DNA of 64,000 bases from Pseudomonas sp. S09G 359 (GTDB lineage Bacteria > Pseudomonadota > Gammaproteobacteria > Pseudomonadales > Pseudomonadaceae): assembly GCF_002843605.1 (NCBI RefSeq), contig NZ_CP025263.1, positions 4,307,501 through 4,371,500 of the forward strand, read 5' to 3'. Within the stretch, counting starts at the first letter, position 1; each line of letters opens with the position of its first letter. The position numbers were made by a program, and so were the translations under genes. A model generated the notes under the pieces. The model searched no databases. It was not told the DNA's origin and saw nothing but the letters and a program-made list of their open reading frames with translations. Shown here piece after piece: positions 5,583 through 17,776 of this stretch.

Positions 5583-7682
<2,100 letters not shown>

Positions 7683-7778
7683 TTATGTCCCACAGACTAA
7701 GAGGCGGTGGACGACGGCTCAATGACCGAAACTGACAAGTTATTGATCCAAATGCACAGTGCCCGGTTCCCCATTCCC

Positions 7779-8756
7779 TTATTCGTCGGGGTTTTCCAGT
7801 GCCAGTACCAGTGCCTGTAGAAAGTCTGCCGCCTGTTTTCCCGTTACAGCCCGATGGTCGAACGTCAGCGACAGTGGCAGAACCGGGTGCACATGCACTT
7901 CGCCGTTCATCGCTACGGGCTCTTCACGAATGCCACCGGCGCCGATAATCGCGACTTGCGGGGGCATGACGATAGGCGTGGCGTAGCGGCAAGATAACGC
8001 ACCGAAATTCGAAAGCGTTATGGTTGCGCCCTGCAAGTCCGCAGGTTTTAGGGTTCGAGCCCTGGCCTCGCGACGTAGCTGTGCCAGCTGGCGTTTGAGT
8101 TCTGCGGTAGGTCGCGAGCCAACGCCACGCAGCACCGGCACGAATAATCCTTGATCGGTGTTGACGGCAATGCCCAGGTCGACCTGACCATGGGACTTGA
8201 CCGACAGCGATTGCCGCTCGAACCAGCAGTTGAGCGCCGGGTGTAAACGGCATGCGGTGGCTACAGCCTTGATCAAGCGCATCAATGGATCACGCGATTC
8301 ACGCCAACAGTACAAGTCAGCATCGGCAAAAATACTGACGGGTACAACAGACGCAGCTGATCGCTCCATGCTCAACACCATGCTCCGGCTCACGCCCTGC
8401 AGTACCGTCGCGCCAGCGGTAATCCCGAACGCCCGAGTTGAAGGCGACGCGCCGATGAAAAAATCATCACTGTCACTGCATTCGTGGGTGTCCAGGCGCC
8501 CTACCACAGTGCCGGCATCCGCGGCCATGGCGTAGCTGAGCAACGGGGTACCTACCGCCAGAATATCGCCCGGTTCTCCATAGGTTTTTGCAACCAGTCC
8601 GGCGTAAGGGGCCGGAATATCGACAACGGCCTTTGCAGTTTCCACCGATACCAGGAGCTGATCGATTTCGAGACTGTCCCCGACTTGGACATGCCACTTG
8701 AGAATCTGCGCTTCATGCAGCCCCTCACCCAAATCCGGAAGATTAAAATGTTTCAT
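7779..8756 (-). CDS. 2-oxoacid dehydrogenase E2 acyltransferase, lacking most of the peripheral-subunit-binding domain
   Basis: Dihydrolipoyl acyltransferase that would move an acyl group from E1 to CoA. Residues 1-76 are one lipoyl domain with the lipoylated lysine in VETAKAVVD. The acyltransferase domain begins near residue 120 (LQGVSRSMVLSMER) and ends with LTFDHRAVTGKQAADF, carrying the catalytic histidine. Between them there is only a stub (ASPSTRAFGITAGATV) where family members have a roughly 35-residue E1/E3-binding domain, so at 325 residues it is short. Start and preceding stop overlap as TAATG. It is the last gene of the seven-gene operon. No E3 gene is nearby, so lipoamide dehydrogenase must come from elsewhere. 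Confidence 0.85.
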   Translation of the reverse strand: MKHFNLPDLGEGLHEAQILKWHVQVGDSLEIDQLLVSVETAKAVVDIPAPYAGLVAKTYGEPGDILAVGTPLLSYAMAADAGTVVGRLDTHECSDSDDFFIGASPSTRAFGITAGATVLQGVSRSMVLSMERSAASVVPVSIFADADLYCWRESRDPLMRLIKAVATACRLHPALNCWFERQSLSVKSHGQVDLGIAVNTDQGLFVPVLRGVGSRPTAELKRQLAQLRREARARTLKPADLQGATITLSNFGALSCRYATPIVMPPQVAIIGAGGIREEPVAMNGEVHVHPVLPLSLTFDHRAVTGKQAADFLQALVLALENPDE

Positions 8757-9760
8757 TACGCCTCCCTGGTCGAAAACCGGGGTTCAAACATAGGGCTGCA
8801 CGCCGCTAGGATGTCTTCGACAGCCGGAATATAAAGGTGCTCCAGCCGAAAAAGCGGCGGTGGGATATCAAGGGCGGTCACTCGTACAATGGGCGCCACG
8901 AGGCGGTCGAACACATGCTCATATAGGCTCGCTGCGATTTCGGCGCCCACTGCGCAGGAGCGAGGCGCCTCATGGATGATTACACACCGGCCCGTCTTAC
9001 TCACCGACGCCGCCAATGTATGAATATCCAAAGGTTTGAGGCACCCGACATCGATTACTTCGGCGCAAATTCCCTGTGTATACAACGCATCTGCGCACTT
9101 AAGCGTTTCCAGCAAGCTGGCGCCCCAACTGATGAGCGTGATGTCATTGCCCTCGCGCAAAGTAAAACAACTGTCCAGCGGCAGACGTTTTCCGTCATCA
9201 GAAAACCTCGAGGTGTGCGTGCGATACAGGCGAGTCGGTTCAAGGAAGATCACCGGGTCGGGATCGTCAATCGCCGCAAGCAAAAGACCATATGCCCGGG
9301 CAGGTGAAGACGGCACCACTACCCTCAGCCCGGGTATTTGAGCAAATAACGCCTCAGTACTTTCACTGTGATGCTCAGGTGCATGGATGCCGCCGCCCAT
9401 CGGTGTGCGAACAACCATTGGGCAGGTGATCCGACCTCTCGTACGGTTGCGCATCCTGCTGGCATGGGAGATCAGGTGTTCCATGGCTGCATAGATAAAC
9501 CCCATGAACTGAAACTCCACCACCGGCTTCAACCCCTGGGCTGCCATGCCGACCGCCAGGCCACCCAGCATTGTTTCCGCCAGCGGCGTATCAATTACGC
9601 GACCCGTACCGAAACGCTCGCTGAGACCTTGGGTGGCGCGAAACACGCCGCCATTTATCCCCACGTCCTCGCCCATCACCACGACGTTCGGATCCTCGGT
9701 CATGGCACGATGCAGGGCGAGATTCACGGCTTCCAATAGGCTGATTGTTTCAGCAGTCAT
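8756..9760 (-). CDS. 2-oxoacid dehydrogenase E1 component, beta subunit
   Basis: Beta subunit (334 residues) of a heterotetrameric E1 of the branched-chain or acetoin type, which with the alpha subunit decarboxylates a 2-oxoacid on ThDP and acylates the E2 lipoyl arm. Typical features are VVVMGEDVG near the N-terminus, DTPLAETMLGGLAVGMA, MRNRTRGRITCPMVVRTPMG, PEHHSESTEALFAQIPGLRVVVPSSP and the late VIIHEAPRSCAVGAEIA. The gene overlaps the E1 alpha stop by 11 bp and its own stop overlaps the E2 start, so the three are translationally coupled. Which 2-oxoacid is used is not visible. The setting next to a KASIII-like enzyme suggests a starter acyl-CoA supply. Confidence 0.92.
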   Translation of the reverse strand: MTAETISLLEAVNLALHRAMTEDPNVVVMGEDVGINGGVFRATQGLSERFGTGRVIDTPLAETMLGGLAVGMAAQGLKPVVEFQFMGFIYAAMEHLISHASRMRNRTRGRITCPMVVRTPMGGGIHAPEHHSESTEALFAQIPGLRVVVPSSPARAYGLLLAAIDDPDPVIFLEPTRLYRTHTSRFSDDGKRLPLDSCFTLREGNDITLISWGASLLETLKCADALYTQGICAEVIDVGCLKPLDIHTLAASVSKTGRCVIIHEAPRSCAVGAEIAASLYEHVFDRLVAPIVRVTALDIPPPLFRLEHLYIPAVEDILAACSPMFEPRFSTREA

Positions 9761-10850
9761 GGCTGCCTCCCGGCGAGCGGCGCGCCACCCGCTTCATAAG
9801 CTCCAGGCGCTGTGCAGCCAAGCAATTCGGCCAGTCAGCATAGACATAGTCCATCACCGACGCGGGAGCCTGAGCGTTCACAGCCTCAAACCGTTGCACC
9901 GCCTGATCGACGAAGTGCCTGCACTCTGCAATCAGTGCCTGCTCACGTTCGTCATCCCAGAATCCGTTGCCCGCCATATAAGTGCGCAAGCGACTTACCG
10001 GCTCCTGCGACCAGGCTTGCCGGGTTTCCTCGGCATCTCGATAGCGGGTGGCATCATCCGCCGTCGTATGGTCACTGAGCCGATAGGTGACGCATTCAAT
10101 CAGCGTCGCGCCCTCACCTCTGCGCGCCTGGTTCAATGCCGACTTCAGGCATTCGTAAACCGAAAAAACATCGTTGCCATCGACTATCTCACCGCGAATC
10201 CCTGCCCCCACGGCTTTGTCAGCCAAGGTGCGCGCCGCACTTTGAAGCCGCCGAGGCACGGAAATCGCCCATTGGTTATTGTTGACGACAAACACCACGG
10301 GCAATTGCCATACCCCCGCGACATTTAGGGCTTCGAGGAAGTCGCCTTTGCTGGTAGCGCCGTCACCGCACGTAGCCACACACACCCTCGGCTCACCACG
10401 CAGTTTGAAAGCGCTGGCAGCACCGCACGCATGCAGGGCTTGCGTAGCGATCGGAACGCAAACCGGAAAGTCCTGGGCGAATGCAGGTTTGGAGAAAAAG
10501 CTACCGCGTTCATCCCCAGCCCAGTAAAGAAGGATGTCTTCCATCCGCATACCACGCATTAGTTGCACGGCGGAGTCGCGGTAATAAGGGGTCAACACAT
10601 CGTTCTCGGCCATCAAGCTGCCGATGGCAACGCCAATTGCCTCTTGACCCAATGCAGAGGCGTAGGTGCCGATGCGGCCGGTTCGTTGTAGGGCCACCGC
10701 CTTCTGATCGAAGAGCCGAGTCAGAACCATTTGCCGGTACAGCGCCATGACGAGCCCTTTGTCGCCTAAACAATCAGGCAATATTCCCTTTACAACGCCA
10801 TCGGGCCTCAAATAGTGGGTGTAGCGAGAGGAGTTCCTAAAAGTAGACAT
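9750..10850 (-). CDS. 2-oxoacid dehydrogenase E1 component, alpha subunit
   Basis: Alpha subunit (366 residues) with the ThDP/Mg-binding motif GDGATSKGDFLEALNVAG...NNNQWAIS at about 170-210, and the family stretch YRQMVLTRLFDQKAVALQRTGRIGTY near the start. The phosphorylation-loop region YRLSDHTTADDATRYRD resembles branched-chain 2-oxoacid dehydrogenases. The start is ATG 10850 with GGAGG six bases upstream. About 225 bp without a gene separate it from the AveC-like gene, so an internal promoter is possible. Base composition here is closer to the chromosome than in the four genes upstream, suggesting the operon was assembled from two sources. Confidence 0.9.
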   Translation of the reverse strand: MSTFRNSSRYTHYLRPDGVVKGILPDCLGDKGLVMALYRQMVLTRLFDQKAVALQRTGRIGTYASALGQEAIGVAIGSLMAENDVLTPYYRDSAVQLMRGMRMEDILLYWAGDERGSFFSKPAFAQDFPVCVPIATQALHACGAASAFKLRGEPRVCVATCGDGATSKGDFLEALNVAGVWQLPVVFVVNNNQWAISVPRRLQSAARTLADKAVGAGIRGEIVDGNDVFSVYECLKSALNQARRGEGATLIECVTYRLSDHTTADDATRYRDAEETRQAWSQEPVSRLRTYMAGNGFWDDEREQALIAECRHFVDQAVQRFEAVNAQAPASVMDYVYADWPNCLAAQRLELMKRVARRSPGGSHDC

Positions 10851-11074
10851 CCTGCGCCTCCGAAAGAGACCGTTATGGGTCAGCGGCGAATCCCCATGTA
10901 ACTGGGGAACTCAATTGTTGTCACACCGAAACTTCCGATCGCCCAATGCATAACTATCGCAGTGACAAGGACAACATTCACAAATCCAACCATCGCCAAA
11001 AGACGCAAAAAAAGATGCACTCCGACGGAAAATTTATATTGGGGATTGATTCTTTCAATAACGGAATAGCCCTG

Positions 11075-11863
11075 CTACTGAGCCTGAAAACGCAACAATC
11101 CAATGGGGGTGCAGATTGCAGCGATTATCAGTGGCGCGTAGATAGGTATTTGATAGGCCTTACCAGACCACAGAGTCAAATTCGGGATAACAATATTGAA
11201 GGCGTACAACCCCGGAAATACGAAAAACAACTCCAATACAAAGTCTAGAACCGCGAGCAATAAAAAACCTGAAAACACCATACCGAGCGCATTACATTTT
11301 GGCCAAAACCGTTTTATAACGCGTAGGGTCGCACATAAAACCATACCAAACAGGACAAACCACCAGCCATATAATCCCAGCACAAACACTATTGGCTCAG
11401 GCGTAAGATTACCTCCATTAGAAAACCAGCCTGGAATAAATGAATTCCAACTACCCCAATTGATCAGATAAGCATTGTAGATCACTAATGGATTGAAAAA
11501 ATTAATCACCGTATCTAACCAGCCTGCTGACAGCCCCCCACCAACCAGCAAAAAATCCCAAGCAACCTTGCCTTCTCTAACCGATTTTATAACGTTATAC
11601 AGAACACACAAAACCAACAAAAAAACCACATTAAACTGAGTAACCCAAGCCGACACCTTGGTTTCGAATGGAACTCCATCAGCGCCCGTGGAAAAAGGCA
11701 TGAGGTCGGAAAAAAGCAACCAAGATGTAAATACATAAGTCTGCAACCCCGCAAAAAATAACCCTATAATAGCCCAAGCCACCAAAGGCTGCTTAATCAC
11801 TTTCGAAACTTTATAAATATCCGACCACATTACAACACCGAATATATTCCCATGCTTTATCAT
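11075..11863 (-). CDS. AveC-like (spirocyclase family) integral membrane protein
   Basis: Membrane protein of 262 residues with about six or seven hydrophobic segments. The block WLDTVINFFNPLVIYNAYL followed by NWGSWNSFIPGW and TPEPIVFVLGLYGW matches the pattern I associate with the AveC-like family, named after the avermectin spiroketal-forming protein and otherwise mostly seen in actinobacteria. That assignment is from recognition of the motif, not a search. The start is ATG 11863, which has a perfect AGGAGG six bases upstream; GTG 11866 is adjacent. It is strongly AT-rich compared with the chromosome. Sitting directly after a P450, it could cyclise or channel the oxidised product; its biochemical role here is unknown. 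Confidence 0.6.
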   Translation of the reverse strand: MIKHGNIFGVVMWSDIYKVSKVIKQPLVAWAIIGLFFAGLQTYVFTSWLLFSDLMPFSTGADGVPFETKVSAWVTQFNVVFLLVLCVLYNVIKSVREGKVAWDFLLVGGGLSAGWLDTVINFFNPLVIYNAYLINWGSWNSFIPGWFSNGGNLTPEPIVFVLGLYGWWFVLFGMVLCATLRVIKRFWPKCNALGMVFSGFLLLAVLDFVLELFFVFPGLYAFNIVIPNLTLWSGKAYQIPIYAPLIIAAICTPIGLLRFQAQ

Positions 11864-11901
11864 CACCCACCTCCTGCCGAACCGACAGTTGCTTCATAAG
11901 C

Positions 11902-13122
11902 TTATACGGACCATCTGCCATGAAGAGACTGCACACCGCGTAGCGTATGTGCCTTATGCCAATTCAACTCATTAATATTGGTTATCTGCAAGTCGGGCAT
12001 ACGTCCCAGCAATGTCTGCAGAGCGACCTTTATTTCTATAAAAGCGAGACGAGCCCCTAAACAATAATGTTGGCCGCCGCCAAAACTGGTAAGCTCTCGC
12101 GCGTCAAGTCCAGGTCGATCAATCAGAAAGTCATCCGGATTTTCGAATTTAACCGGATCACGGTTGGCAGCCCCTAAACATACAATCACAGTGTCTCCTC
12201 GACGCAGATAATGCCCTTCGAAATGAAAGTCCTCGAGCACTTCACGGGCGGCAATCTGTAAAGAGTTCTCATGGCGAAGGCACTCAAGCACACACTGAGA
12301 GAGAAGTTCGGGATTGTCACGTATACGTGCAAGCGTCTCTGGGTGTCTATAAAGACAAATTATTGCATTACCTATCATATTGCCAGATGTCTCATGACCA
12401 GCAGCAAACAGAAAAATAACATTTGAGATAATTTCCTCATCACTCATCCCCAACGCCTCATCTAACGACAAGAAAAGGGAAATCAAATCATCACCAGGCA
12501 CCTTTCTTCGCTGAGCAAGTTTATTTCGAAAGAAATCGTGCAACTTAAGCGCACCTTCGTTCGCGATAGCCAGATCGTGATAATTGATATTGGCAATTTC
12601 CAATGTTTTTGTTATCGCCGCAGTGAGGTGCCAGAGTTCCTGTTTGAAAAGCCGCGTTTCTTCGGGATCAAGGCCCAATAGATTGCAGATGACAACCACA
12701 GGTATCTGACTAGCATACTGGGCGACCAGATCCGTCTCGCCCTTGGAGTAAATCCCATCAATCAGACCGTGAGTAGTATTTTCCGCTAGCGATGTAAACT
12801 TATCCGTGTAACGGGAACCAAATGCTTTCGCCATCTTAGCTCTGAGTACCGTATGCTCAGGCGGATTCATCATTAACACGGATTGAGTAAATACTTTAAA
12901 TGCCGGACCCGCGGCCGTGACCTCATCATATCGAGTATTTAGATAATGAACAAAATCCCTACCTACGTGTTTGTCACGCAACAATGCCTGCGTAACGGGA
13001 TAACGGCCTGTTATCCAAAGAGTGGGCAACAAACTGACCAAAGCTCCCGCCTCTCTAAGTTCTCGATAAAGCGGATAAGGATTCTCATAAAAAGCGCTCG
13101 ATGAAAAATCAGAAAGATTCAT
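11902..13122 (-). CDS. Cytochrome P450
   Basis: Soluble bacterial class I P450 of 406 residues. All signature motifs are present: the I-helix FAAGHETS for oxygen activation, the K-helix ExxR in LECLRHEN, the meander NRDPVKFENPDDFLIDRP and the heme-thiolate loop FGGGQHYCLGARLA with the ligand cysteine. ATG 13122 is chosen over the far-upstream start at 13233 because the extra 37 residues would overlap the ketosynthase gene and do not look like P450, while GAGG lies 9 nt before this ATG. A ferredoxin and reductase are not encoded nearby. Position after the ketosynthase suggests hydroxylation or further oxidation of the condensed acyl chain. Confidence 0.93.
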   Translation of the reverse strand: MNLSDFSSSAFYENPYPLYRELREAGALVSLLPTLWITGRYPVTQALLRDKHVGRDFVHYLNTRYDEVTAAGPAFKVFTQSVLMMNPPEHTVLRAKMAKAFGSRYTDKFTSLAENTTHGLIDGIYSKGETDLVAQYASQIPVVVICNLLGLDPEETRLFKQELWHLTAAITKTLEIANINYHDLAIANEGALKLHDFFRNKLAQRRKVPGDDLISLFLSLDEALGMSDEEIISNVIFLFAAGHETSGNMIGNAIICLYRHPETLARIRDNPELLSQCVLECLRHENSLQIAAREVLEDFHFEGHYLRRGDTVIVCLGAANRDPVKFENPDDFLIDRPGLDARELTSFGGGQHYCLGARLAFIEIKVALQTLLGRMPDLQITNINELNWHKAHTLRGVQSLHGRWSV

Positions 13123-13172
13123 AGACAATACCTCAATAGCTTTTTCTATACCGATAGACAAGGCACCAGCAA

Positions 13173-14216
13173 CTAAAGGCGGAAGCCAAACGAAGCAAAT
13201 GACATGCCCGCACTCCCGACCCAACCGGCACAATAGTCTCCCTCCTCAACCACTTTGGTATTCCTAGCTTTTGCCAATGCCACAGGAATGGAGGCCGATA
13301 CAAGATTCCCATACTCCGGATATATGAATTGGATTTTATCCTGTACGTTGAGTTTGCAACCCATTTCCCACCAAGCCTGTAAGGATGCAGCGTGTGGGAA
13401 AATCGCTTTTATTGAGTCAAAAGAAACACTCAACTTTTCAAAGATGGCTAAAGCGTGAGGCTTGCCAAGATCAAACATTTCACTGGCAAACGAATAAAAA
13501 CTGTTCACGCCATTGCATCCCAGCTTATCCGTCGGCTGACAGTACAAGTCATAAGCATCCAGCGGTACGGCACACAGGTCGCTGGCACCGTTCTCACTAC
13601 TGAAATGAAACTCCCAGGGGTTTCCATCGTCCTTGACCAGTACCGTTGCGCTCGCGGCTTCGCCGATGGTGTACGCGGCAAGATTGTGTTCGACCTGCTC
13701 TATTTTTGTAAGATTAAAGCATCCTGGAAACACTCTACCACCAGCACGCATTGAACACTCACAATTGACAATCAGCGCGTTCCGATAACAGTTGGTAGCC
13801 ATCAGATTTGAAACTACAAATGCAGCACGCGTCCAACTCATACAGGCATCAACAATGTCAAAGCAATGGGCATTTGGCATACCCAATGCGGAGCCGACCA
13901 TATAAGCCATTGCAGGCTCAAGAAACCCGCGATCTACCCCGGTGTAAATAATCAGCTCTATTGCAGAGGGTTTCAGTTGCGCTTCTGCCAATGACTCACT
14001 CACCGCTCTGGACAAGAGTTCAAATGGACGCTCGCCTTCTGCCAACCAGCGACGCTCTCGTGCCCCGGAGAATGTTAAAAAGAAATTGATACGCCGTAAC
14101 ACCAGATTTAATTCCTCGCCCACCAAGGTCGGACTCAGTTCAGTCACGAGGCGCTGTATATCGAGGTTACCGACTGTCCGCGACGGTAACACTGCACTGA
14201 GCCCGGCGATTTTCAT
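13173..14216 (-). CDS. KASIII/FabH-like 3-oxoacyl-ACP synthase
   Basis: Thiolase-fold condensing enzyme (347 residues) of the FabH type. The nucleophile cysteine is in FDIVDACMSW, the histidine in IFPHAAS and the asparagine in YPEYGNLVSASIP, so the Cys-His-Asn triad is complete and decarboxylative or Claisen condensation is chemically possible. The start ATG 14216 overlaps the stop of the FAAL-ACP gene (ATGA), indicating tight coupling. Divergence from housekeeping FabH (for example an N-terminal TELSPTLVGEELN segment) and the cluster context argue for a secondary role, joining an ACP-bound fatty acyl chain with a CoA-derived acyl group. Substrates are not known. Confidence 0.87.
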   Translation of the reverse strand: MKIAGLSAVLPSRTVGNLDIQRLVTELSPTLVGEELNLVLRRINFFLTFSGARERRWLAEGERPFELLSRAVSESLAEAQLKPSAIELIIYTGVDRGFLEPAMAYMVGSALGMPNAHCFDIVDACMSWTRAAFVVSNLMATNCYRNALIVNCECSMRAGGRVFPGCFNLTKIEQVEHNLAAYTIGEAASATVLVKDDGNPWEFHFSSENGASDLCAVPLDAYDLYCQPTDKLGCNGVNSFYSFASEMFDLGKPHALAIFEKLSVSFDSIKAIFPHAASLQAWWEMGCKLNVQDKIQFIYPEYGNLVSASIPVALAKARNTKVVEEGDYCAGWVGSAGMSFASFGFRL

Positions 14217-16246
14217 GGACGGTTCTCCGCCAGGTAATAACTCAGTTGGTCGATACTCGGATAGTCGACAAGCAAGTCAGAAGGCAGTTGGCATCGTAAT
14301 TTCTCACCTAACCAATCCGTCAGTTCCAATATTTCAATCGAATCCAATCCAAGGCTGTTGAACGTCCTGCTGCAATCGAGAGAAGTGGCGGGAATATTTT
14401 TTACGTCCGATAAATATTCCAGCATGTACCCGCGCAATGTCGCAATGTTCGACTTGCTGGCAATGCGCTCAACCGTATTCTGTGCGGAGCTCTTAAGGCT
14501 ATACACACATTCCAGTGCCTGAGCCAAATATTCGGCTCGCGCCTTTGCTCTCTGGACTTTCCCACTGGACGTTAATGGAAATGTCCCTGAGCGCACCAGA
14601 ATAATATCTTCCAACACAACTTCATGATCGCGCCCAACAGCATCTTGAATGGCCAGCACAACGACAAGCGGCTCCAAGTGATGGCGTTCGGATCGTTCTA
14701 TTTCGACTACAACGACTACTTTTTCACCCGATGGCATTTCCATACCAAACGCACAACAACGTCCTGCCCGCAAGGCGGGATGAGCATTCTCCACCGTAAG
14801 TTCCAGATCTTGCGGGTAAATATTCTGGCCATTAACTATTATTACATCGTTAATACGACCTGAGACATATAGTTCGCCTTCATGAACAAAACCTAAATCA
14901 CCCGTCCGCAGGAAGACCCCATCGACACCATCCAAGCGAGCGCCGAATGTCTGTTTCGTCAATTCAGGCTGATTCCAGTATCCCATTGCGACACTGGTAC
15001 TTTTAACCCAAATCTCACCCACTTCATTGCTTTGAGACTGACTGAGCAATACCGGATCTACGATACGCAAGTCCGCGCTTATATTCGAACCTCCGCAACT
15101 TTGCAAACGCCGCCCTTCTGGACTGTCAGCCAAGTCTTGACGAGCGACAACTTTTCTTCGTGCATACGCTTCGTTATCGACCCATACAGTTTTTGCAACT
15201 TTGTCGACACTAACGCTCGATACTTTCAACGTTGCCTCCGCAAGACCATAACCCGGCCGTACAACATTCGCGCCTAGCCCGCACCCTGCAAAAGCGCTGT
15301 GGAATCCGAATAGGGTTTTTGGGCGCACCGGTTCTGCTCCATTGGATGCAACGACCCACGAACGCAGGTCAAGCCCTTCCTTCATCTCTTGGGTTATTTT
15401 ATTAATACACAGTTCATAGGCAAAATTAGGTGCCGCGCTGTGGGTACCTCGGTACTTTGAAACCGCTTGAAGCCAACGCACAGGCTGTTGCAACACTACC
15501 GCTGGCAACAATGAATAAATTGCAAACCCCAAATATAACGGGGTCAGCATTCCATAGACTAACCCCATATCATGATAAACGGGTATCCAAGTGATCATCA
15601 CAGACGTTTCATCATGTCGGTTACCACCCTCCATATCTTGAATACCTGAGACCAAGTTCGCTTGTGAAACCATTACGCCTTTTGGCGTAGCCGTCGACCC
15701 TGAGGTATATTGCAGGAGGGCTATATCGTGATTGCGCGTTCTACCTAGATATTCTTCTTCGGCGAGAGTGTCTGCGCTTACTAATATCCATTGTGCACTA
15801 TTAAAATAACTGGAGACCCCTCCCAGTTCTTGAACTCTATCTTTCATATAACTGTCGCACAAAACAACACTCGGTTTTGCATCTTCCGTAAGGGTTACCA
15901 CGCGTTGCGTATTACGATTCACCCCGCGTGCCTTGCCTGAGCCTCGAATAGGATAACAGGGCACGGCCACTAATCCGGCTAACAGACAAGATAAAAATGC
16001 CACCACAAAATCTGCGCCGCCCGGCACCAGAATCAACACGCGGTCGCCGCAGTTCGTACACCCATACATCATTTTCGCGAGCGCTCTTGCTCGCGACATG
16101 ATCTGCGCATATGTAAAACTTTCCTTGACGTCACCAGACGGTGAAATCTCGTGATAGACAATGAAATCGGGTTTGTTTGACTCATGATGTTCCATCGCTT
16201 CAATCAGCGTCGTATGACCTTTGAAAAATTCCGAATACAGACTCAT
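14213..16246 (-). CDS. Fatty acyl-AMP ligase fused to an acyl carrier protein
   Basis: Adenylate-forming enzyme (677 residues) that activates a fatty acid as acyl-AMP and probably loads its own C-terminal carrier domain. Motifs in order: QYTSGSTATPKGVMVS (P-loop), WIPVYHDMGLVYGML, RPGYGLAEATLKVSS (typical of FAALs), RTGDLGFVHEGELYVSGR, and the hinge/terminal GKVQRAKARAEYL. An ACP follows at about 600-677 with the phosphopantetheine serine in NSLGLDSIEILEL. ATG 16246 (MSLYSEFFKGHTTL) is preferred. A GTG at 16321 would add 25 residues not expected in the family. It is the first gene of the operon and is AT-rich, with a gene-free AT-rich leader upstream. Confidence 0.9.
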   Translation of the reverse strand: MSLYSEFFKGHTTLIEAMEHHESNKPDFIVYHEISPSGDVKESFTYAQIMSRARALAKMMYGCTNCGDRVLILVPGGADFVVAFLSCLLAGLVAVPCYPIRGSGKARGVNRNTQRVVTLTEDAKPSVVLCDSYMKDRVQELGGVSSYFNSAQWILVSADTLAEEEYLGRTRNHDIALLQYTSGSTATPKGVMVSQANLVSGIQDMEGGNRHDETSVMITWIPVYHDMGLVYGMLTPLYLGFAIYSLLPAVVLQQPVRWLQAVSKYRGTHSAAPNFAYELCINKITQEMKEGLDLRSWVVASNGAEPVRPKTLFGFHSAFAGCGLGANVVRPGYGLAEATLKVSSVSVDKVAKTVWVDNEAYARRKVVARQDLADSPEGRRLQSCGGSNISADLRIVDPVLLSQSQSNEVGEIWVKSTSVAMGYWNQPELTKQTFGARLDGVDGVFLRTGDLGFVHEGELYVSGRINDVIIVNGQNIYPQDLELTVENAHPALRAGRCCAFGMEMPSGEKVVVVVEIERSERHHLEPLVVVLAIQDAVGRDHEVVLEDIILVRSGTFPLTSSGKVQRAKARAEYLAQALECVYSLKSSAQNTVERIASKSNIATLRGYMLEYLSDVKNIPATSLDCSRTFNSLGLDSIEILELTDWLGEKLRCQLPSDLLVDYPSIDQLSYYLAENRP

Positions 16247-16321
16247 ACCCCGCACCCCGTTTCTCGTTGAAGATACCGCATGCGCTAAACCATGATTCGA
16301 ATAAACATCAAGCGTCCGCAC

Positions 16322-16645
16322 CCAACCTGATCGAGCACAGTAAAGACGCAGTCAGTATTCCAGAGCACAGAGTATTTACTACTGTGAAACTTGACAGTTA
16401 TCCATAACATTAAGAGATAACAACCATAGCCAAGGGAAATAAACTTCAAAACTTTCTTGACCTACTACTTCAACGGCTACTCACGCCAACTATAAGAAAC
16501 ATTCAAGCCAAATCATTGTTCATATCATTAGCGCTTCATGGCCACATGACATCTTTTCCCGCAAATAGTCAGCGCCCCTTGGCAATTTGTCTTATGAGCC
16601 ATACCCTAGCGGGATATTTCAGAAAGAAACCCTCATTGCTTTCCC
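16322..16645. other. AT-rich divergent intergenic region
   Basis: About 320 bp between the FAAL operon (leftward) and the nitrilase-like gene (rightward). It is clearly richer in A and T than the chromosome to its right, and contains no open frame I would call a gene. Promoters for both directions must lie here, but I could not pick a convincing -35/-10 pair for the cluster or a regulator palindrome. Confidence 0.5.
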
Positions 16646-17776
16646 ATGCGTAAACTTCTAGCGTTCACCGTCACCATGGCCCTGGTTGCCGCCGTCGCCG
16701 CGTATCTGGTCTGGACCCAGGAGCGCCCCGTGGCGCATTACCTGTCCGACCTGCGCATCACCCTCGCGGTGAATGAAGGGCTGCCTGCCGATCGCGGCAA
16801 CCTGCTGGGCATCCAGCCGGAGCTGTTTCCCGCCGACTACCAGAGCCTGGAACGCCTGCACTTGAAACTCGCGGCCTACCTGCAAAAGGCTCGCGACCAG
16901 GGGCTGATCAACGACAAGACCATCGTGGTGCTGCCGGAGCATATCGGCACCTGGCTGATGCTCACCGGCGAAAAGAATGAGGTGTACCAGGCGCTGCATG
17001 CCAAGGATGCGATGAACTGGTTTTCGCTGAGTAACCCGCTGCTGTTTGCACGTGCCTGGATCAGCGCGACCGGCGACAACCGCAGCGACGACGCCTACCT
17101 GCGCATGAAGGCGGCCGGCATGGCACGCGACTACCAGGTGCTGTTCGGCGGTCTGGCCAAGGAGTTTGGCGTGACCTTGGTGGCCGGCTCCATCGCCCTG
17201 CCCAACCCGAGTGTCAGCCAGGGCCAGCTGCAGATCGGCCATGGTGCGCTGTACAACGCCAGCCTGGTGTTCAATGCCGACGGTTTGCCGGTGGGCCAGC
17301 CGCAACGCCAGCTCTATCCGATCTACGATGAACGTGGCTTTATCCAGCCTGGCGATGAAAACGTGGTCAGCGTGGTCGACACGCCGGCCGGCCGTTTGGG
17401 CGTGCTGGTGGGCAGTGACAGCTGGTACCCGGACAACTACCGCAAGCTCAACGAGCAAGGCGCGCAACTGGTCGCTGTGCCGGCTTTTGTACTCGGTCGC
17501 GACACCTGGAACCGCCCGTGGCGCGGGTTCAAGAGTGTGTCCACACCGCCGGAAATCAGCCTCAAGCCCGAAGAACTCAGCGAGGGCGAAGCCTGGCGCC
17601 GGCTGACCCTGATCAGCCAGCAGCCCATCAGCCAGGCCGGCGCGGGCATGAGTGTGTTCCTGCGCGGGCAGTTCTGGGACCTGGGCACTTCCGGGCAGAG
17701 TTTCTTGAGCAGTAACGGGCAAGTCAGTGCCGACGGCGATGCACGTGGTGCGCGCTTGCTGAATATCTGGCTGTAA
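16646..17776 (+). CDS. Membrane-anchored nitrilase-fold protein lacking catalytic Lys and Cys
   Basis: Carbon-nitrogen hydrolase superfamily protein of 376 residues with one N-terminal membrane segment (KLLAFTVTMALVAAVAAYLVW), so the domain probably faces the periplasm. The catalytic glutamate is kept (IVVLPEHIG), but the usual Lys segment reads PQRQLYPIYDE (Gln in the Lys position) and the nucleophile segment reads GVLVGSDSWYP where active members have GVxICYDxxFP, so Cys is replaced by Gly. It is therefore predicted not to be a standard amidase. Spacing of 4 bp to the AraC gene implies co-transcription. In P. aeruginosa an uncharacterised homologue appears, from memory, next to fadH1. Confidence 0.75.
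   Translation: MRKLLAFTVTMALVAAVAAYLVWTQERPVAHYLSDLRITLAVNEGLPADRGNLLGIQPELFPADYQSLERLHLKLAAYLQKARDQGLINDKTIVVLPEHIGTWLMLTGEKNEVYQALHAKDAMNWFSLSNPLLFARAWISATGDNRSDDAYLRMKAAGMARDYQVLFGGLAKEFGVTLVAGSIALPNPSVSQGQLQIGHGALYNASLVFNADGLPVGQPQRQLYPIYDERGFIQPGDENVVSVVDTPAGRLGVLVGSDSWYPDNYRKLNEQGAQLVAVPAFVLGRDTWNRPWRGFKSVSTPPEISLKPEELSEGEAWRRLTLISQQPISQAGAGMSVFLRGQFWDLGTSGQSFLSSNGQVSADGDARGARLLNIWL

Follow-up and report, generated by a model that had tools for sequence, protein, structure and literature searches.

Our analysis of a 64,000-nucleotide window from Pseudomonas sp. S09G 359 (contig NZ_CP025263.1, the single contig of a 6.77 Mb genome) indicates that seven of its genes form an apparently uncharacterised operon with a recognisable NocG/NocH core. 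With moderate confidence, we read it as an acquired, insertion-borne biosynthetic operon in which acyl chains would be joined head to head into a ketone core, to be oxidised by a cytochrome P450 and cyclised by an AveC-like protein. The first two genes encode a fatty acyl-AMP ligase (FAAL) fused to an acyl carrier protein (ACP) and a ketosynthase, and by their sequences they belong with the NocH/NocG pairs of the nocuolin (noc) clusters of cyanobacteria. Transcription runs along the minus strand in the order FAAL-ACP, ketosynthase, P450, AveC-like protein, and E1alpha, E1beta and E2 of a 2-oxoacid dehydrogenase:

14213..16246, minus: fatty acyl-AMP ligase fused to ACP, NocH-like (Pfam AMP-binding, AMP-dom_DIP2-like, PP-binding)
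13173..14216, minus: ketosynthase of the NocG/OleA-like kind, 347 residues (Cys125, His275, Asn304, Glu100-Pro101)
11902..13122, minus: cytochrome P450, 406 residues, complete by its motifs (Pfam p450)
11075..11866, minus: AveC-like membrane protein, truncated (Pfam AveC_like; the stop lies inside the family match)
10880..11074, minus: rest of the AveC-like frame past the stop (read from the sequence; matches the C-terminus of the homologue P0001)
9750..10850, minus: E1 alpha (Pfam E1_dh; 63.7-69.4% identical to E1alpha in 8 Pseudomonas loci)
8756..9760, minus: E1 beta (Pfam; 74.8-79.8% identical to the same 8 Pseudomonas loci)
7779..8756, minus: E2 acyltransferase with lipoyl and catalytic domains, 325 residues, no E3-binding domain

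The putative loading and condensing pair

An earlier, sequence-only reading of this DNA had described seven tightly spaced genes on one strand, from 7779 to about 16246, and the reading frames confirm this. The FAAL and ketosynthase frames overlap by 4 bases, E1alpha and E1beta by 11, and E1beta and E2 by 1; the gaps between ketosynthase and P450 and between P450 and AveC-like gene are 50 and 35 bases. The 224 bases that separate the AveC-like stop from E1alpha are taken up by what remains of the AveC-like frame, whose end is some 30 bases short of E1alpha. The identities given to the genes also hold, since Pfam returns AMP-binding, DIP2-like and PP-binding domains, then ACP_syn_III_C, p450 and AveC_like, and for the dehydrogenase E1_dh, Transket_pyr/Transketolase_C, and Biotin_lipoyl with 2-oxoacid_dh.

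The FAAL-ACP has 677 residues from its ATG (a longer GTG start at 16321 is possible), its carrier-site serine lies within GLDSIE, and NCBIfam, scanned with the ligase, puts FAAL models first among those for stand-alone ligases. In the ketosynthase, the intact Cys-His-Asn that had been claimed is present as Cys125, His275 and Asn304, and these residues, together with Glu100-Pro101, are invariant in a 24-sequence family alignment. Glu100-Pro101 is kept in 66 of 67 genome loci, the exception being a fragment, and the glutamate in 119 of the best 120 of 549 database matches; the cysteine is kept in all of both sets. When a family profile is compared with PDB sequences, OleA of Xanthomonas campestris is the best match, with its Glu117 aligned to Glu100. 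Published work gives OleA Glu117, followed by proline, as the essential base, and describes LstAB thiolases with the same Glu-Pro base and Cys-His-Asn. OleA differs in other respects: identity is about 20%, and OleA takes acyl-CoAs whereas the island has an ACP-fused ligase. A cluster of the OleABCD kind, making an olefin or beta-lactone, was set aside, as no OleBCD-like genes occur among the seven.

To place the ketosynthase among its relatives, we scanned genomes with two peptide patterns, which gave at least 80 candidates; the 67 loci fetched from these are a lower bound on the number that exist. Their neighbouring genes were sought by tblastn (E no higher than 1e-6, matches of 100 residues or more, within 8 kb, some loci being short). 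FAAL-ACP stands directly upstream of the ketosynthase in 24 of the 67, or 22 of 63 where at least 2.5 kb of upstream sequence is present. Matches were found to FAAL at 26 loci, to a NocF-like ABC1-aminotransferase fusion at 26, to an acyl-CoA-dehydrogenase-like protein at 15, to DUF3419 at 12, to P450 at 11, to a Rieske protein at 7, to AveC at 1 and to a hybrid histidine kinase at 30, while E1alpha, E1beta and E2 each gave none.

In a midpoint-rooted tree of 71 rows (four of the 67 loci, incomplete or gapped, were left out), the window ketosynthase falls within an 11-row set (support 100/100) that also holds metagenomic proteins, Pararobbsia and Paraburkholderia tuberum. This set lies inside a 38-row set (99/96) that holds a noc locus, L041, and that is supported as a whole, the branching order within it not being fixed by the tree. 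L041 belongs to Trichormus sp. NMC-1, one of the genomes that PMC5333925 reports as noc-bearing. The order at L041 of FAAL-ACP, ketosynthase, aminotransferase, flavin monooxygenase, P450 and putative methyltransferase fits nocH to nocD as that paper gives them, the single-gene assignments being our own. The paper annotates nocG as an acyl-ACP reductase, and some database members of the ketosynthase family are likewise so annotated. According to a review, NocG condenses a pair of acyl-NocH thioesters, which yields a beta-keto acid, and the nocuolin FAAL substrates are marked in its table as in vitro data.

The island shares with the noc clusters a FAAL fused to ACP and, beside it, a ketosynthase of the noc set with Cys-His-Asn and the OleA-type Glu-Pro; identity to the ketosynthases of seven cyanobacterial loci is 45-48%. 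It is not a noc cluster, for among its seven genes there is no aminotransferase (the NocF-like ABC1-aminotransferase fusion), N-monooxygenase or flavin monooxygenase, DUF3419, Rieske or acyl-CoA-dehydrogenase-like gene, nor any further noc gene; in their place stand the P450, the AveC-like gene and the 2-oxoacid dehydrogenase. Within the 11-row set the acidobacterial L034 and P0016 branch off first, and both FAAL and the NocF-like aminotransferase are retained at L034. The simplest history is that the aminotransferase was lost and the P450 and AveC-like genes were gained.

Two further associations appeared among these relatives. A fusion of an atypical kinase domain of the ABC1 type with a class-III aminotransferase (in L041 at 11138-13756, by Pfam) lies beside NocG-like ketosynthases of several phyla, accounting for the 26 loci counted above. 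The hybrid histidine kinase occurs at L056, L057, L059, L060, L062-L075, L077, L079-L081, L085, L087-L089, L091, L093, L094 and L096, and 20 of these 30 loci are titled Paraburkholderia. The L056 kinase has HisKA, HATPase, two receivers and Hpt, and the quorum sensor LuxN is the best NCBIfam model for its kinase part, with a score far below the model's cut-off. Possibly these loci pair a KASIII-type signal synthase with its sensor.

The island and its dehydrogenase genes

We delimited the island by searching 15 kb of the window against 115 genomes, our own included. Matches in the listed rows of the same genus, at 68-90% identity, cover the oxidoreductase flank as far as about 7764 and resume at about 16640 on the nitrilase flank:

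7765..16640, no strand: whole inserted island, between NADH:flavin oxidoreductase and nitrilase-like genes
5583-7637, minus: NADH:flavin oxidoreductase gene, left flank
16646-17776, plus: nitrilase-like gene, right flank

Among seven related loci chosen by hand, three (G017, G067, G048) have the two flanks 63-72 bases apart with no island between them. Since the flanks adjoin in relatives, 7765-16640 is an inserted island, either taken up in one piece or built up over time at a site prone to insertions. The remaining four loci carry other inserts there, of about 1.5, 1.9, 3.1 and 4 kb, and the site is likely an insertion hot spot. These inserts differ among L113, L114, L115 and L116, with for example a chemoreceptor gene in L113 and an autotransporter in L114. 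Third-position GC (guanine plus cytosine) is 0.43-0.64 in the island genes against 0.80-0.83 in three flanking genes. A direct repeat joining the two ends of the island was looked for and none was found, and promoter-like and terminator-like sites are about as numerous as in shuffled sequence. A plasmid origin was set aside, as the four plasmid records matched cover at most 3% of the query. The flavin oxidoreductase was rejected as an eighth cluster gene, since it occurs without the island in relatives.

Similar clusters are scarce in the genomes searched. FAAL has matches at the cut-off in 317 of 398 Pseudomonas genomes; the other listed rows are 34-40% identical, in frames mostly longer than 1,100 residues, and a 686-residue FAAL frame in G130 has no ketosynthase, P450 or AveC match within 19 kb. 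The ketosynthase has matches in 10 of 353 Pseudomonas genomes besides our own, 34-35% identical in the nine compared (L148-L156), and the stretches read around these distant ketosynthases (nine of 4 kb, four of 15 kb) hold no FAAL or AveC match. The 390 genomes of the order and 369 of the class add 3 and 2 besides our own; six stretches from these show no AveC or E1/E2 match and one distant P450 match (24%), and the source contigs of two of the six, L141 and L146, are of the same size as those of L052 and L090. Pararobbsia has FAAL-ketosynthase-P450 and no AveC match in its genome. Among 349 genomes of the P. tuberum family three carry AveC, P. tuberum included, and 3.9-kb stretches from the other two show AveC alone.

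The P. tuberum locus, L033, preserves the order FAAL, ketosynthase, P450, AveC, at 69% identity for the ketosynthase, 59% for the P450 and 49% for AveC. It differs in an extra P450 (FAAL-ketosynthase-P450-P450-AveC) and in lacking the dehydrogenase genes there. Of its two P450s, the second, which adjoins AveC, shares 59% identity with the window P450 and the first 48%; the gene for the second (12380-13731) is frame-broken by a short tandem duplication.

The sequence-only reading had found no described pathway for the gene set. For the loading and condensing pair this does not stand, as the pair is of the NocH/NocG kind. For the whole combination it agrees with our searches: the collections and literature covered, antiSMASH and MIBiG not among them, hold no near-identical cluster whose product is known, and a search of the literature by title and abstract start, with subscription papers mostly outside it, gave no description of a FAAL-ketosynthase-P450-AveC cluster.

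The dehydrogenase genes call for separate consideration. E1 alpha, E1 beta, lipoyl and acyltransferase domains are all present by Pfam, as the earlier reading had it; what it did not mention is the missing E3-binding domain of the E2. PF02817 has no match in this protein and alignments show a gap there, whereas the domain is present in the L120 and L099 E2s scanned. Five of 120 listed E2 matches are without it by precomputed domains, P0126 and P0127 among them. The other three, P0150, P0166 and P0225, are E2s of 323-337 residues whose residual linkers differ; these are probably separate losses, and the different linkers imply that such loss can recur.

It is possible, though we think it unlikely, that these three genes are a hitchhiker beside a four-gene cluster and stand outside its pathway. 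No E1alpha, E1beta or E2 match lies within 8 kb of the ketosynthase at any of the 67 other loci, some of them short, and the island falls into two composition blocks, with GC of 57-58% in the dehydrogenase genes against 42-49% in the four upstream genes. Kin of the dehydrogenase lie in Pseudomonas operons of the leucine-dehydrogenase type (E1beta 75-80%, E1alpha 64-69% and E2 54-55% identical, 8 loci), where an ELFV-family (leucine/valine/phenylalanine-type) dehydrogenase gene precedes E1alpha-E1beta-E2 in 8 of 8 loci, an assignment made by Pfam on one locus, the others being 69-79% identical to that gene. The island, unlike these operons, has no ELFV-family gene in front and has an E2 without the E3-binding domain, a loss which, from the three other such E2s, need not be peculiar to this cluster. 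The best E1beta match of P. tuberum (62%) is on a different contig from its cluster. In the genome of this strain the dehydrogenase type does not occur a second time, the next E1alpha being 36% identical.

What speaks against a mere hitchhiker is a second lineage. The nearest outside relative of the E2, P0127, is 73% identical and also 325 residues long; those of the ketosynthase (P0007, 74%) and AveC (P0002, 53%) come from the same source, each with a longest contig of 15,039, from which we infer that all three lie on one contig. Within the island, moreover, the dehydrogenase genes share the strand and start about 30 bases past the end of the full AveC frame. The dehydrogenase thus seems to travel with the cluster. 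The earlier reading had asked whether these genes are unrelated to the other four: by their absence from the 67 loci and their leucine-dehydrogenase-type kin they look like a separate recruit, and they appear linked now. Its view of the seven genes as one operon is supported in the sense of one acquired unit, by the empty sites in relatives and by the link of E2, ketosynthase and AveC in the second lineage.

The P450 and the AveC-like protein

The P450 was described as complete, and ECLR, AGHETSG and FGGGQHYCLG, which we take to be the P450 motifs, are all present. The AveC-like assignment fares well as to family and poorly as to the gene. PF17198 matches with 103.6 bits against a cut-off of 26.6, and an in-frame stop at 11075-11077 cuts the frame, the Pfam match resuming beyond it; the product has 263 residues against 318-378 in five database homologues. 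One of the five, P0001 (327 residues; 3 member sequences from 2 contigs), is an intact copy that is identical to the truncated protein wherever the two overlap, and its predicted model, of low confidence (mean pLDDT 63.8), has seven long helices, with the stop near the end of the sixth.

PMC13303154 describes AveC as catalysing spiroketalisation and dehydration of a dihydroxyketone. The likeness to the avermectin AveC is one of family, known from sequence alone, and the island differs in having no modular polyketide synthase and a truncated gene. AveC-like genes occur in other settings as well: by a P450 on a Mycobacterium branderi plasmid (L130, 10425-12996), among genes read as catabolic, and on a plasmid of Paraburkholderia sprentiae (L131, 9953-10903), next to a gene that carries an ecdysteroid 22-kinase family annotation, with no ketosynthase match in either stretch.

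Could the island simply be decaying and make nothing in this strain? The stop in the AveC-like gene, the E2 without its E3-binding domain and the P450 gene that is frame-broken in P. tuberum too would all fit. We nevertheless find this doubtful, as the other six frames are open, the ketosynthase and E2 are equal in length and 73-74% identical to those of a second lineage, and intact AveC copies exist.

Proposed pathway and its meaning

We propose that the enzymes of the island probably couple two fatty acyl chains head to head, as in the nocuolin pathway, and that the P450 and AveC-like protein may then oxidise and ring-close the product. By analogy with the noc pair and OleA, the ligase would activate fatty acids as acyl-AMP and load its own ACP. 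The ketosynthase would hold one acyl chain on Cys125, while Glu100 from the partner subunit, as in OleA, would deprotonate the alpha carbon of the second acyl thioester; the resulting non-decarboxylative Claisen condensation would give a 2-alkyl-3-oxo acid, from which loss of CO2 would leave a mid-chain ketone. The P450 could hydroxylate one or both arms of this ketone, and the AveC-like membrane enzyme could dehydrate or ring-close it. Less securely, E1alpha/E1beta/E2 might supply one acyl partner from a 2-oxoacid, branched-chain or otherwise. The sequence-only reading had the ketosynthase join a ligase-loaded chain to a dehydrogenase-made one; this is possible, and the known relative takes both chains from FAAL-ACP.

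The least secure part of this mechanism is the supply of an acyl group by the dehydrogenase, and the AveC-like step is probably impaired in this strain by the stop. A spiroketal is possibly the product and a reasonable guess, and the same truncation tells against it here.

A quite different chemistry would follow if the ketosynthase were a decarboxylative enzyme of the FabH type, which would either condense a branched acyl-CoA starter made by the dehydrogenase with malonyl-ACP or cap the FAAL-loaded chain. Pfam and NCBIfam do class the protein as KASIII, a single-sequence PDB search puts FabH first, fold comparison, which lists no NocG structure, leaves OleA and FabH tied, and a branched-chain dehydrogenase would suit a FabH starter. 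However, FabH 2ebd has FPST where our protein has the OleA-type Glu-Pro, and in the tree the protein groups with NocG-type ketosynthases. By its sequence, then, the ketosynthase is of the NocG kind and not an ordinary FabH, which we set aside for the retained Glu-Pro, and we consider decarboxylative chemistry quite improbable. Long-chain hydroxyketones are signals in Vibrio and Legionella, and with a match to the L056 kinase, which scores best against LuxN but far below the cut-off, near 30 of the 67 ketosynthases, the product might serve as a signal, as a long-chain ketone autoinducer would, and not as an antibiotic-like metabolite; this too is improbable, as there is no kinase among the island's seven genes and 27 of the 28 kinase-linked ketosynthases in the tree form a set of their own.

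Returning to head-to-head condensation, the most far-reaching version of our proposal is a bacterial spiroketal route free of polyketide synthases: a NocG-like ketone would receive hydroxyls from the P450, the AveC-like protein would close both rings, and one arm would come from a dehydrogenase whose E2, lacking the E3-binding domain, passes its acyl group to the condensing machinery. We offer this as speculation, with the odds against it.

More generally, the unusual chemistry of NocG/NocH is described for a nitrogen heterocycle of cyanobacteria, and our analysis places it in a genus that is tractable, next to oxidising and cyclising enzymes. An E2 that lacks the E3-binding domain and seems to have been retained in two lineages raises the question of how its acyl group is passed on. 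Since head-to-head condensation followed by P450 hydroxylation could give a dihydroxyketone of the AveC type, the operon leads to a testable prediction, namely that its product would be a small spiroketal or a related ring.

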